A program made the position numbers and the translations under genes. Positions 3,670 through 16,482 of a DNA stretch of 21,427 nucleotides are shown here, piece after piece (the stretch's first letter is position 1; the number at the start of each line of letters is the position of its first letter). The notes under the pieces were generated by a model. That model worked only from the letters and a program-made list of their open reading frames with translations, was not told the DNA's origin and did no database searches. Source of the stretch: a virus; IMG/VR virus record IMGVR_UViG_3300025128_000408, positions 1 to 21,427 of that record; one strand, given 5' to 3'.

Positions 3670-3837
3670 CTAGCCTAAAAACCACGCTAAACTACGAGAG
3701 TTATCTTTACCCTCTACTTGTTGTGGAAAATCTTTGCTTTGCAAAGCTAGTTCAATTTCTCGAAAAATGCTTTGTAGGGTATCTGGATCGTATTCATCAG
3801 GTGCCTGTGCTAACGATGACAGAAGTAATTTAGCCAT
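3670..3837 (-). CDS. 55-residue conserved-type phage protein (hypothetical)
   Basis: A short gene that fills the gap exactly. ATG at 3837 overlaps the tail-hub stop as TAATG, and its TAG (3670-3672) touches the next ATG. The product begins MAKLLLSSLAQAPDEYDPDT and continues with LQSIFREIELALQSKDFPQQ, an amphipathic helix; it ends in LAWFLG. A short protein with a xxYDPxxLxxIFRxIExAL pattern next to tail-hub genes is, as I recall, common in marine phages, function unknown. The exact fit at both ends and the coding character (mostly helix-compatible, AT-rich third positions) support it as a real gene in spite of its size. Confidence 0.8.
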   Translation of the reverse strand: MAKLLLSSLAQAPDEYDPDTLQSIFREIELALQSKDFPQQVEGKDNSRSLAWFLG

Positions 3838-8179: not shown

Positions 8180-8845
8180 CTATGCTGCTCTATCTTGTGA
8201 GTCGTCAATTTCTATAAATATTGTTGTCTCTGCATTTTCTATTTCTGAATAAGTTACACTATCACTAGGAGTTATTTCAATAAAATTTACTAGTTGAGAG
8301 TCATCTATTTGTGAATAAGTAATACTCTGAGAGTCATTAATATTTGCATAAGTAATACTTTGAGAATCATCTATTTCGAGCCAACCTAATAAAACTCCTA
8401 CCTCACCAGTCGCTGATTGACCGTCTAAAGTTACATCAACACCTGTTCCTTCAACAATAGTGGGCGATCCTACTGATCCTGTGCTCGATTGACCAGTTAG
8501 AGTTACATCGACCCCTGTACCCTCAACTATAGTAACTGAACCTACGGCACCTGTGCTTGATTGACCAGTTACAGCAACAGTGATACCTAATACAACGGTT
8601 ACTGTGCCTACAGCACCTGTGCCAGATTGACCAGTTACAGAAACAGTAGCTCCACCTGTAGCTGTTACTGTGCCTACAGCACCTGTAGCAGATTGACCAG
8701 TTACAGAAACGGTAACACCTGTACCTTCAACTACAGTGACTGAACCAACCGCACCTGTACCACTTAAACCCGTTACTGTGATCGATGTATCAGTGGTTCC
8801 CCATGAACCTTCACTCCATCCATCTCTCCCCCAACCAATTGCCAT
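8180..8845 (-). CDS. two-tier repeat virion protein (fibre-like, hypothetical)
   Basis: 221 residues made almost entirely of repeats. A short Trp/Gly-rich cap (GWGRDGWSEGSWG, 4-16) is followed by six 22-24-residue units of the form VTGQSxTGAVGxVTVVxG (about 24-157) and then by five and a half 11-residue units of the form IDDSQSITYxx (158-221). Alternating hydrophobic and small residues predict a regular beta structure, as in a thin fibre or spike. A Trp/Gly cap, TGAVG units and DDSQ units together are a pattern I have met in marine phage structural proteins next to fibre genes. A role in attaching to or extending the tail fibre is inference. No enzymatic motif. The start has AAGGA in the last codons of the gene before it. 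Confidence 0.8.
   Translation of the reverse strand: MAIGWGRDGWSEGSWGTTDTSITVTGLSGTGAVGSVTVVEGTGVTVSVTGQSATGAVGTVTATGGATVSVTGQSGTGAVGTVTVVLGITVAVTGQSSTGAVGSVTIVEGTGVDVTLTGQSSTGSVGSPTIVEGTGVDVTLDGQSATGEVGVLLGWLEIDDSQSITYANINDSQSITYSQIDDSQLVNFIEITPSDSVTYSEIENAETTIFIEIDDSQDRAA
8183..8374 (-). repeat. 33 bp tandem repeats encoding 11-residue IDDSQ units
   Basis: Five full 33 bp units and one partial unit in exact frame: IDDSQSITYAN, INDSQSITYSQ, IDDSQLVNFIE, ITPSDSVTYSE, IENAETTIFIE, then IDDSQDRAA. The first two are nearly identical and the middle ones have drifted, as expected for an array grown by duplication. Confidence 0.85.
8375..8776 (-). repeat. six tandem 66-72 bp repeats inside the repeat protein gene
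   Basis: The string gattgacc recurs on the plus strand at 8415, 8487, 8559, 8625 and 8691, giving spacings of 72, 72, 66 and 66 bp; a divergent sixth copy lies near 8763. Each unit encodes one VTGQSxTGAVG beta repeat. Nucleotide similarity between units is high, with the clearest matches around the gaccagtt segment, so unequal recombination could change copy number. Confidence 0.85.
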
Positions 8846-12180: not shown

Positions 12181-12897
12181 TTATCTGTTTTGTACAGCCA
12201 TCAGGTAATCAATAGTCATCGACTTGGTTCCTGTTGCAGAACCAGATAATTCCATCGCACCAATAGCTAAATTTTCATTATCAGGAAGATTAGCTGTATG
12301 TGTTGCAACTTTGTTTCTATTTACAAAAAATTCAACACTTCCAGTTCCCTTTACATGAAAGCCTAAAGTAACAGATGTACCACTTACAATATCAATACCT
12401 GAGTCAGTAGTTGTAGCTGTTCCGTCTTTTTCAGTAACACAATCAATATTGCTGTCACCGTCATCTATCTGAAATACTATTCTATCTGCTGCGGTTAGCA
12501 TAGCTTCTGGATTAGTTGCAAAGTTAACTGTCAAACCAACGCAAACGTCCATAGCATCGCCTTCTGCATCAGTGATAAATAATTTAGTTTCAAACCAAAT
12601 ATCACGAGTAGCAGATAACGCAAATATTTCGTTACCTTGAACAGAAGCACCGTCATTATCAGTAGTTGCTTCAGAACTTAAAACTAACGTACCATTTTCA
12701 GCGTCTGCACCTAAAGCACCTGAAGCTGAACTGTCCTTTATTAATGTCCAATCGTTAGTAGTGTCTAATGCGATACCAGTAAAATCATCCATGTACATTA
12801 AATAGTCAGGATTGTTCGCTACTGGTAAATTTTCAAACCATTGTCTTTGTCCGTCTTTACCTGCGTAAAGCACTGGGCCAGTAAAATGTACTGCCAT
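12181..12897 (-). CDS. lectin-like (jelly-roll) virion protein, putative
   Basis: 238 residues starting MAVHFTGPVLYAGKDGQRQW. The body alternates beta strands with Asp/Gly/Thr turns: DDFTGIALDTTNDWTLIKDS, NGTLVLSSEATTDNDGASVQ, DIWFETKLFITDAEGDAM, then GTSVTLGFHVKGTGSVEFFV with NRNKVATHTANLPDN. This order (binding-pocket strand, FETKLxI, then a FVNRNKVATH strand) resembles concanavalin-A/LamG-type sandwiches used by phages as head-surface or fibre domains. It is the first gene after the capsid gene and is preceded by the structured leader. Head decoration or surface adhesion is a reasonable inference; no enzymatic residues seen. The strong AAGGAGG lies 8 nt before the ATG. Confidence 0.75.
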   Translation of the reverse strand: MAVHFTGPVLYAGKDGQRQWFENLPVANNPDYLMYMDDFTGIALDTTNDWTLIKDSSASGALGADAENGTLVLSSEATTDNDGASVQGNEIFALSATRDIWFETKLFITDAEGDAMDVCVGLTVNFATNPEAMLTAADRIVFQIDDGDSNIDCVTEKDGTATTTDSGIDIVSGTSVTLGFHVKGTGSVEFFVNRNKVATHTANLPDNENLAIGAMELSGSATGTKSMTIDYLMAVQNR

Positions 12898-12905
12898 TTA
12901 AATAT

Positions 12906-12982
12906 CCTCCTTACCAAAGGTTTCGCCCTAGAGTCTTGGTAAGCGTCTGCTGGGACAGTCGCTAGGGCTAGTTATTTCCCAG
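12906..12982 (-). ncRNA. pseudoknot-forming 5' leader overlapping a ribosome site
   Basis: In minus-strand RNA order: CTGGGA (12982-12977), GCCCTAG (12968-12962), a hairpin GCGACTG / CAGACGC with one A-A mismatch and loop TCCCAG (12962-12943), TTACCAA (12942-12936), CTAGGGC (12931-12925), TTGGTAA (12917-12911) and the ribosome site AAGGAGG (12912-12906). GCCCTAG pairs CTAGGGC, enclosing the hairpin. TTACCAA pairs TTGGTAA across that stem, giving H-type pseudoknot order. CTGGGA can also pair the hairpin loop. The last pairing reaches the ribosome site of the next gene. It looks like a translation-controlling RNA. I do not recognise a known riboswitch class; the structure is predicted by eye. 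Confidence 0.5.
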
Positions 12983-13012
12983 ATTAATGGGGGAGACTAG
13001 CTCCCCCTAATC
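12982..13012 (-). terminator. strong hairpin directly after the capsid gene
   Basis: GGGGGAG (12989-12995) and CTCCCCC (13001-13007) form a 7 bp GC-rich stem with a 5-base loop, extended by gatta (12982-12986) and taatc (13008-13012) across a 2-base bulge. It starts 2 nt after the capsid stop. No U-tract follows on the minus strand, so it may be a partial terminator, a pause site or a 3'-end stabiliser that raises capsid mRNA over the downstream genes rather than a full stop. Confidence 0.6.
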
Positions 13013-13014
13013 AT

Positions 13015-13923
13015 TTATGCACCTGGCGAACCAAATACGCAACGTGGATCTGAGAAACCAAAGCTATAACGCTCTCGAGCCTTAAATCTCATGTTACCTG
13101 TATCGAAGTCACCTTCCATCTTAGTTGACATTGGCAATCTTTCAAAGTGCAAGAAACCTCTTGGGGTATCTGTCTTAATAAAGAAAGCGTCTGAATCTGT
13201 AAGATAGTGATTTACAACATAACCCTCAGGCAACATTCCCATGTTACGAGAAGCGTTAATGTCGTTATCTGCGGTTCCTGGTCGTAGAGTAGATTCTAAC
13301 AATCTATCTGCAACGAACTGTAACGCAGGTGGTACAATAAGTTTAGTACCTCTTACAGACACTTTAAGTCCACGCTCATCTACGAACGCAGAAATGTCAA
13401 TTAAAGAGTTTTCTAAACTTGTTTCGTTCAAGTCAGCAGCTGTGCTTAACTCATTTCGAAAAGTGTTACCATTTGTTAGAGGGTGGTCTGTAGCGCAAAG
13501 CTCTTTTCCATCTCCACCTGTAACAGTGCTATCGAATGCGTTATTTAATACCGCAGCAGACTTAACCTGTTTAGTGTGTGCCATACTTCTAGCTAATGCT
13601 TTGGTATAGCGGCTTGCAAGACGATCATAAAGATTATCTTCAATTGCTTCTTCAGTAATTGAAAAAGCTAAAGAAATAGTCTCATGTGTATATCGTGCTG
13701 TGAAAGCCTCTTGTGCATCATCAAATGTAACCGCGGCACCTTCAGATTTAACGGGTGCAGACCCAAAACCTGTAAGCATCACTTCTTCTTCAAACGCTCT
13801 GTCTGAAGATTCTGTTTCATAGATTTCTGCGTGTTCATCGTCATACCTAGCATACTCCATCCCAAAAAGGGCATTGAGGCCAGGCTCTAGCTCTTTCGCT
13901 AATTGTGCTCTACTAATAGCCAT
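13015..13923 (-). CDS. major capsid protein (HK97-fold, gpT-like)
   Basis: 302 residues. The N-terminal part is helical and acidic (AQLAKELEPGLNALFGMEYA, then ETESSDRAFEEEVMLTGFG). From about 65 the HK97-type body follows: FTARYTHETISLAFSITEEA, LARSMAHTKQ, then VLNNAFDSTVTGGDGKELCA and TDHPLTNGNTFRN, KLIVPPALQFVADRLLES, and a C-terminal RFKARERYSFGFSDPRCVFG. The FDSTVTGGDGxxLxATDHP segment is typical of the Mu gpT-like branch of capsid proteins. It assembles with the scaffold and portal into the procapsid. An excellent AAGGAGG ribosome site overlaps the upstream stop, as expected for the most abundant virion protein. Assigned with high confidence from sequence plus position after the scaffold. 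Confidence 0.92.
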   Translation of the reverse strand: MAISRAQLAKELEPGLNALFGMEYARYDDEHAEIYETESSDRAFEEEVMLTGFGSAPVKSEGAAVTFDDAQEAFTARYTHETISLAFSITEEAIEDNLYDRLASRYTKALARSMAHTKQVKSAAVLNNAFDSTVTGGDGKELCATDHPLTNGNTFRNELSTAADLNETSLENSLIDISAFVDERGLKVSVRGTKLIVPPALQFVADRLLESTLRPGTADNDINASRNMGMLPEGYVVNHYLTDSDAFFIKTDTPRGFLHFERLPMSTKMEGDFDTGNMRFKARERYSFGFSDPRCVFGSPGA

Positions 13924-16020: not shown

Positions 16021-16482
16021 TTAAACGTGTTGTATATCATCGGGTTCTAATATAGTAGCTATTACCTCATCATCATTAATTATTCTGACTTCACCGCCTT
16101 CTATGCGAAAACGAGCACCAGCATAACGACCAATACAAACCCAATCACCTTCCTTGCACCATGCTTTTTCAGAATCTTCACCAAATTTAGCAATATCCTG
16201 ATAAGCCAGTGGTCCTACTTTCAAAACATAAGCTACAACCGTAGCTAATGCTTCTCGAGTTCTAACAGCATCTGGGATGGCAATACCCCCATCGCTTTTG
16301 GCACGACCTTGATATGGCATAACTAATATGCGCCAACCTGTAGGTTGTGGTAATCTTTCAGTAAGTTTTCTATCTAGTAACTCTGGATTTAAAACTTTTT
16401 CTTCTTTATTTACATAAGCGTCCGATAATGATGTTTGTTTTTCTTGCTCTTCTTTTGCAACATGATCTGGAACGTATAACAT
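16021..16482 (-). CDS. phage GroES-like co-chaperonin
   Basis: 153 residues. An N-terminal extension (about 1-43, charged, with MLYVPDHVAKEEQEKQTSLS) precedes a GroES/Cpn10 domain. PTGWRILVMPYQG (47-59) is the first strand, GGIAIPDAVRTRE (65-77) is the mobile loop with IAI in place of the GroES IVL tripeptide, VVAYVLKVGPLAY (82-94) and KEGDWVCIGRYAGARFRIE (110-128) are the core strands, and VRIINDDEVIATILEPDD (132-149) closes the barrel. GroES caps GroEL and helps fold phage capsid protein, as T4 gp31 does. No GroEL is encoded, so it must act with the host chaperonin. TAATG overlap with the upstream gene. High confidence. Confidence 0.9.
   Translation of the reverse strand: MLYVPDHVAKEEQEKQTSLSDAYVNKEEKVLNPELLDRKLTERLPQPTGWRILVMPYQGRAKSDGGIAIPDAVRTREALATVVAYVLKVGPLAYQDIAKFGEDSEKAWCKEGDWVCIGRYAGARFRIEGGEVRIINDDEVIATILEPDDIQHV

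Follow-up and report, generated by a model that had tools for sequence, protein, structure and literature searches.

A conserved pseudoknot before phage capsid-decoration genes: a probable translational control element related in plan to Mu-gpT-DE

The leader behind the capsid gene

What purpose is served by the non-coding DNA behind the capsid gene of this virus? The window analyzed here is a 21,427-base virus record with its structural genes on the minus strand. The gene upstream of the leader (13015-13923, minus strand) encodes the major capsid protein (PHROG 371; Pfam Phage_capsid_4 and Mu-like gpT), the match to PF10124 (Mu-like_gpT) having an E value of 3.3e-9. The gene downstream (12181-12897, minus strand, AUG at 12897) encodes a 238 amino acid protein of the capsid-decoration (cement) type, with the tag MAVHFTGPV and a jelly-roll body. 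Between them are 117 non-coding bases (12898-13014), the largest such gap of the window. An earlier note on this DNA had called the gap the only sizeable intergenic one and this holds up, because a seemingly longer gap at 3670-3836 is filled by a 53-codon minus-strand open reading frame (MAKLLLSSLAQ...). Elsewhere in the window, a gene upstream of the capsid gene (16021-16482) occupies the place of the GroES co-chaperonin, as it is annotated in related phages, and 8180-8845 encodes a protein with TGQSxTGAVGxVT repeat units, which is probably a fibre-like repeat protein.

The earlier note had proposed a pseudoknot in this gap, and every letter that it named can be read from the minus strand at 12906-12982. 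The following description of the parts is based on the parse and alignment of the leaders referred to below as class A. In the order of the mRNA strand, the leader begins just past the capsid gene with a G+C-rich hairpin, GGGGGAG-ctagt-CTCCCCC (12989-13007). Next come CUGGG, the 5' strand of helix P0 (12978-12982), GCCCUAGCG, the 5' strand of P1 (12960-12968; GCCCUAG followed by CG), a single A (12959), CUG, the 5' strand of P2 (12956-12958), and U. These are followed by CCCAG, the 3' strand of P0 inside the P2 loop (12950-12954, pairing with 12978-12982), and CAG, the 3' strand of P2 (12947-12949). The 3' part then consists of AC (12945-12946), G, CUUACCAA (5' strand of P3, 12936-12943), GA (12934-12935), CUCUAGGGC (3' strand of P1, 12925-12933; CUAGGGC preceded by CU), GAAACCU, UUGGUAAG (3' strand of P3, 12910-12917, pairing with 12936-12943) and GAGG. 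The last strand of P3 overlaps the AAG of the Shine-Dalgarno (SD) sequence, read from the sequence as AAGGAGG (12906-12912). In class A the SD is paired only in part and GAGG remains free. Three helices of the window are perfect: GCCCTAG-CTAGGGC, TTACCAA-TTGGTAA (8 bp if the next C-G pair is included) and CTGGG-CCCAG.

The G+C-rich hairpin resembles a terminator. However, it is not followed by a run of T and is not listed by the terminator scan. Most class A relatives have a G+C-rich hairpin of another sequence at the same place. A sub-threshold match to the frameshift element blv_FSE at this hairpin lies on the plus strand and was rejected.

Judged from the window sequence alone, the case for the pseudoknot is modest and chance is barely excluded. 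Of 5000 dinucleotide shuffles, 87 contain a pair of perfect stems, each 7 bp or longer, that cross. The free-energy check suggested in the earlier note gave a nested fold no better than shuffled sequence (z = -0.88), but this is not decisive because nested folding cannot score crossing helices. It is the comparison of homologues that decides.

Compensatory changes in class A relatives

Homologues came from a capsid-protein scan, which yielded 80 viral loci, and from a pattern scan of the core, which added more. The resulting class A set consists of 95 distinct leaders parsed from viral contigs. P0 reads CTGGG-CCCAG in 82 of the 95 and CTAGG-CCTAG in the other 13, with zero exceptions. This is the pairing of CTGGGA with the hairpin loop that the earlier note had suggested. 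On the tree of the major capsid protein both sides of P0 change seven times, and all five of the supported independent pairs agree, in a test where such pairs are few and where leader and gene may travel as one cassette.

P1 occurs as 23-24 types among the 95 leaders, nearly all with eight or nine of the nine positions paired, and both sides vary in six of the nine pairs. Permuting the partners of 23 distinct P1 pairs 2000 times gave at most 7.70 pairs on average, compared with 8.43 of nine in the real combinations. P3 is represented by 21 distinct pairs. It has at least five contiguous pairs in every leader, and the first G of the SD is invariably the last base of its 3' strand. Thus both the stem GCCCTAG-CTAGGGC and the helix TTACCAA-TTGGTAA, which the earlier note had seen crossing it and touching the SD, covary. 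An alignment of 40 diverse class A sequences provides the covariance analysis that the note had called for: 94.6% of the cells are standard pairs (at most 48.2% with the partners slid), and there are 54 double-change cells vs. 12.7 in shuffles. Comparative sequence evidence therefore confirms the predicted pseudoknot, with all three long-range helices (P0, P1 and P3) kept by compensatory changes.

The exceptions to standard pairing are informative about the kind of molecule involved. In P1 of class A there are 13 G-U and two A-C, and the numbers are 15 and 0 in class B and 28 and 2 in class C, the two further classes described below. This excess of G-U over A-C indicates that the element is an RNA of the coding (mRNA) strand and not a DNA feature.

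A covariance model of class A also finds leaders outside the sample. Pelagibacter phage HTVC023P scores 43.3 bits (E = 5e-9), with its helices respelled but kept as ATTTTGTAG-CTACAAAAT (P1) and GTATAG-CTATAC (P3). The same is true of phage DSL-LC04 (34.6 bits, E = 1.5e-6), with CTCGTATCT-AGATACGAG (P1) and TAGTAG-CTACTA (P3). Hundreds of relatives, in a large group of aquatic phages, retain the knot while its letters change. A blastn comparison of the leader with phage records returned short unrelated matches only. A pattern scan of GTDB gave 43 matches, one of which, on a short Maricaulis MAG contig, was confirmed by the covariance model; the rest look like chance. The confirmed match is a class A leader (703-797) on a 4.6-kb contig that is binned with the MAG but is probably a phage contig.

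The hairpin GCGACTG-CAGACGC of the earlier note fared less uniformly. Its inner part, CTG-CAG, is P2 and is invariant in class A. The outer part is not fixed and competes with P1, in that the outer C of the hairpin has two alternative partners, one in the 3' strand of P1 and the other just behind CAGAC. Of 76 leaders whose P1 is unable to pair the outer C, 72 have G at the position behind CAGAC, compared with only 1 of 13 whose P1 is able to do so. Since the G tracks the inability of P1 to pair, the outer hairpin is an alternative rather than a fixed helix.

Mu-gpT-DE and the three classes of leader

Is the element already known? The window has no match at gathering threshold to any Rfam family, and for RF03012 (Mu-gpT-DE) in particular there is none up to an E value of 10 in 12700-13200. 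Nevertheless, the Rfam comparison advised by the earlier note leads to a catalogued relative, because RF03012 itself is present at many loci whose capsid genes are related (53-77 bits; gathering 49). These leaders of the RF03012 type, of which 132 sequences were collected, are called class B here. In the literature found, Mu-gpT-DE appears as a metagenomic motif only, with no assigned function. The Rfam structure shows no helices besides P1 and P2, the model stops at the AUG, and the family type is given as "Gene; sRNA". The authors of CaCoFold described the drawn structure as lacking covarying pairs and the Rfam and ZWD versions as different (PMC7657543).

Class B has a third helix that is absent from the Rfam structure. 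Its 5' strand, nine bases long and located behind P2, pairs with the first two codons of the downstream gene, the start codon included, as in UAGCCA-UGGCUA, ACCCA-UGGGU, UUGCCA-UGGCAA and UCGCCA-UGGCGA. The strand has G in all 105 leaders whose gene has an Ala second codon (GCN) and C in 25 of 27 with a Gly second codon (GGN); the other two re-pair by a shift. With this P3 included, 94.2% of the structure is paired across 52 sequences. Mapped on the capsid tree, the codon has changed 15 times and the strand 14. All eight of the supported independent pairs that differ in both codon and strand agree (p = 0.008), with the caveat that leader and gene may move together and that the support in the leader's own tree is too low for a test. 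An orphan metagenomic RNA thereby gains a corrected structure and a testable role.

The window leader is like RF03012 in several respects. It too lies between an upstream Mu-gpT-like capsid gene and a downstream gene with an FxGP tag (see below). The order P1, P2, core (A...AC...GA) and 3' strand of P1 is the same, with P1 enclosing the P2 hairpin and a CUGAC..GAC-type strand before the 3' strand of P1 (alignments A1 and A2). In addition, a relative of the window's cement gene (84% identical) sits behind a class B leader at another locus (L282). However, there are also differences. P2 is CUG-CAG in the window and CAG-CUG in RF03012. Class A has the extra helix P0 and a longer P1 that is free of the SD. 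In RF03012 the 3' strand of P1 is the SD (CAGGAG), whereas in class A it is CUAGGGC and the SD follows the 3' strand of P3 instead. P3 of the window pairs beside the SD, and that of class B pairs the start codon. Because the window falls short of the curated score of 49 bits and lacks the pairing of P1 with the SD, its element is filed as a relative of RF03012 by architecture and not as a member.

A further capsid-protein scan, around phage HTVC027P, revealed class C, with 55 parsed leaders. Here P0 has 6-7 bp and P1 has 8-11 perfect pairs in 30 types. Permutation of P1 gave at most 6.57 pairs, compared with 8.00 of eight observed. P3 is CCTAG-CTAGG in 49 leaders, CCTAA-TTAGG in five and CCAAG-CTTGG in one, and the SD starts with its 3' strand. 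All three classes share the plan [P1]G-A-[P2]-AC-x-[P3]-(x)GA-C[P1'], where P1' is the 3' strand of P1. The common core around P2 and P3 corresponds to A 12959, AC 12945-12946 and GA 12934-12935 of the window (12934-12959), according to alignments A1 and A2 and the class C parse. In each class the ribosome-binding site is in a helix: the SD in P3 in classes A and C, the SD in P1 and the start codon in P3 in class B. Classes A and C are unmatched by Rfam, and the window element is related by plan to a known RNA. These two classes are thus added to the catalogued one, and all of them precede genes of a single kind, namely capsid-decoration genes. Carriers include cultured Pelagibacter and Roseobacter phages.

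Related capsid genes accompany class A, B or C leaders, and on a capsid-protein tree of 200 loci the leader changes between A and B 16 times. It is as if leader and cement gene were exchanged as a cassette. There may be more classes. A tentative fourth leader, of Planktothrix phage Pag-Yong1 (L323, 2904-3010), precedes a gene whose protein begins MSTTLFPAPV; it consists of GACCCGGGG-CCCCGGGTC, crossed at the SD by CCGTCT-AGACGG. At three other loci (L051, L058 and L073) the leader upstream of an FxGP gene does not fit any of the three classes cleanly, the first having class B ends and a longer strand without the start-codon pairing.

How the leaders are transcribed seems to differ between classes. 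Of 130 class B leaders, 84 have a -10-like TA(T/C)NNT at the same distance (10 or fewer at any other offset), and the predicted transcript start is the A of AUCCCUG. In class C there are TATA-type boxes at -12 (48) and -14 (41) of 58 from P0. These fixed distances imply that in classes B and C the transcript should start where the element does. For HTVC027P, dependence on the host RNA polymerase has been reported for the whole of infection (PMC12753301). A -10-like box is absent from the window and from most class A leaders, and promoter and terminator scans at the window leader found nothing. These leaders are probably transcribed together with the capsid gene, by a polymerase that reads on through the hairpin.

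The gene behind the leader and its control

A script found an FxGP-tagged gene after all but two of the 95 class A elements (93) and all but one of the 132 class B elements (131). By eye, the three misses look like two slips of start calling and one TYNGPV. The consensus of the protein start is (A/G)x(T/S)(T/H/R)FxG(P/A)(V/I). Class C leaders were gathered by searching for FxGP genes, so in their case the link with the tag is not independent evidence. What follows the tag is far less constant. Without their first 20 residues, the class A and B proteins fall into at least 16 body families, six of which occur behind both classes, and cement proteins from loci of different class (A vs. B) can be up to 92% identical over 162 aa. 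The decoration genes share only the short tag (FxGPVRS), like a tag-plus-body system for capsid display with swappable bodies.

The earlier note had called the window's own protein lectin-like, and this is right. In an AlphaFold model (pLDDT 78, pTM 0.81) the tag is disordered, and Foldseek matches the body to GH16, legume lectins and SO2946. A Pfam match to SO2946-like is below cut-off, and sequence searches of the PDB with the capsid and cement proteins gave no useful relatives. The modeled body is a jelly roll of the concanavalin/glucanase type. However, since the same leader precedes at least 16 unrelated body families, the fold appears to be incidental, and the sequences point to the capsid-decoration (cement) gene as the controlled feature. 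That FxGP-tagged proteins are cement proteins follows from annotation plus inference. In phage DSL-LC04 the gene after the class A leader is annotated as a cement protein. In Pam1 it is the N-terminal loop of the cement protein that touches the capsid protein (PMC9698820), in line with bodies that change behind a conserved N-terminal tag.

What, then, does the leader do? The 3' strand of a conserved pseudoknot overlaps the SD of the post-capsid gene, and a translation switch, as the earlier note proposed, would be the natural reading. There is thus good reason to regard the leader as a cis-acting translational control element of the capsid cement gene, and the knot probably sets the amount of cement protein made. 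Comparison of sequences is the source for which helices form, for the strand that carries them and for their overlap with the ribosome-binding site. It also shows that the element stands exclusively before FxGP-tagged genes and that leader classes replace one another in front of the same gene families. In the proposed mechanism P1 and P3 would form the pseudoknot, and the loop of the short P2 hairpin would be tied by P0 to upstream sequence. The 3' strand of P3 would then occupy the first SD bases, and the closed pseudoknot would give the 30S subunit poor access to the start site. Opening, whether spontaneous or by a factor that reads the A/AC/GA core, would govern the timing and amount of cement relative to capsid protein. 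Repression in class A may be mild, because only part of the SD is paired.

What might the factor be? Tentatively, the three classes, as one superfamily of pseudoknots that bury the ribosome-binding site around a common A/AC/GA core, may be a new kind of regulated phage leader, in which a specific effector (the capsid protein, its assembly state or the FxGP tag) couples cement translation to capsid assembly across aquatic phages. A little more tentative still is the guess that a conserved phage protein, either the capsid protein or the tag, exerts feedback, and that this is likelier than sensing of a metabolite. The reason for it is that leader classes interchange and that cement bodies differ, in contrast to the capsid protein, tag and core, which do not vary. 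At a guess, the ranking is a conserved phage protein first, a damper without any effector second and a small molecule third.

The damper would be a pseudoknot that sets a low, constant or delayed initiation of cement translation relative to the capsid gene. The ribosome-binding site is indeed occluded in three ways in three seemingly interchangeable classes, and capsid and cement proteins are needed in a fixed ratio, with 540 copies of each (540:540) in phage GP4 (PMC9698820). However, a simple hairpin would suffice for this, and the unpaired A/AC/GA core of three classes and the loop tied by P0 exceed the need, which leaves a fixed damper rather unlikely. The same unpaired core, conserved in A, B and C, could instead bind a small molecule or ion and make the leader a translational riboswitch, and its layout of crossing helix and SD is that of the preQ1 riboswitch of T. 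tengcongensis (PMC4735710). This is improbable, as no Rfam riboswitch matches, no metabolic gene is under the leader, and the only gene that it precedes, in hosts that range from SAR11 to lake bacteria, is a structural phage gene of one kind.

No likelier is a 5'-end stabilizer or processing element, whose fold would protect a strongly expressed late mRNA from 5'-end-dependent decay with the overlap of the ribosome-binding site as a by-product. In classes B and C transcription is predicted to begin at the very first base of the element, which would suit it, and parts of the structure could simply be an efficient or protective 5' leader. However, a protective hairpin needs neither an SD nor a start codon, the class B pairing follows the second codon, and class A has no promoter. 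The shuffling of leaders and bodies among phages might also suggest a DNA recombination joint for cement-gene exchange, or a chance repeat, in place of an RNA. This can practically be set aside: pairing survives complete sequence change (28 distinct class C P1 types, all 8/8 paired), crossing helices are impossible as a DNA cruciform and the G-U vs. A-C bias is strand-specific. The balance of capsid and cement can now be tested directly in reporters with the leaders of HTVC023P, HTVC027P and CRP-901.

Known RNAs offer partial parallels. The preQ1 and SAM-II riboswitches are compact pseudoknots whose crossing helix occupies part of the SD, as in the window leader. For preQ1 of T. tengcongensis the overlap is partial (PMC4735710). 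Neither has a sequence or model match here, the window topology differs (P2 hairpin, P0), and the gene is a phage structural one. Covariance models of the riboswitches and ribozymes of Rfam 15 have no match in the window. The layouts of HDV-like and pistol ribozymes were considered and rejected, because the hairpin would have to lie on the other side of the crossing strand; Rfam finds none. Translation-controlling phage pseudoknots are rare in the literature, and a 2010 review regarded that of the T4 gene 32 leader as possibly the only viral example of translational control (PMC3014915). The gene 32 knot is likewise in a phage mRNA leader and used for translational (auto)control. However, it is 67 nt upstream, where it nucleates protein binding, whereas the window knot itself contains the ribosome-binding site. 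The rpsO (S15) and alpha operon (S4) leaders are pseudoknots that do include the ribosome-binding site, in this case of cellular genes with a known regulator, and the S4 leader pairs into the start of the coding region, as class B does.
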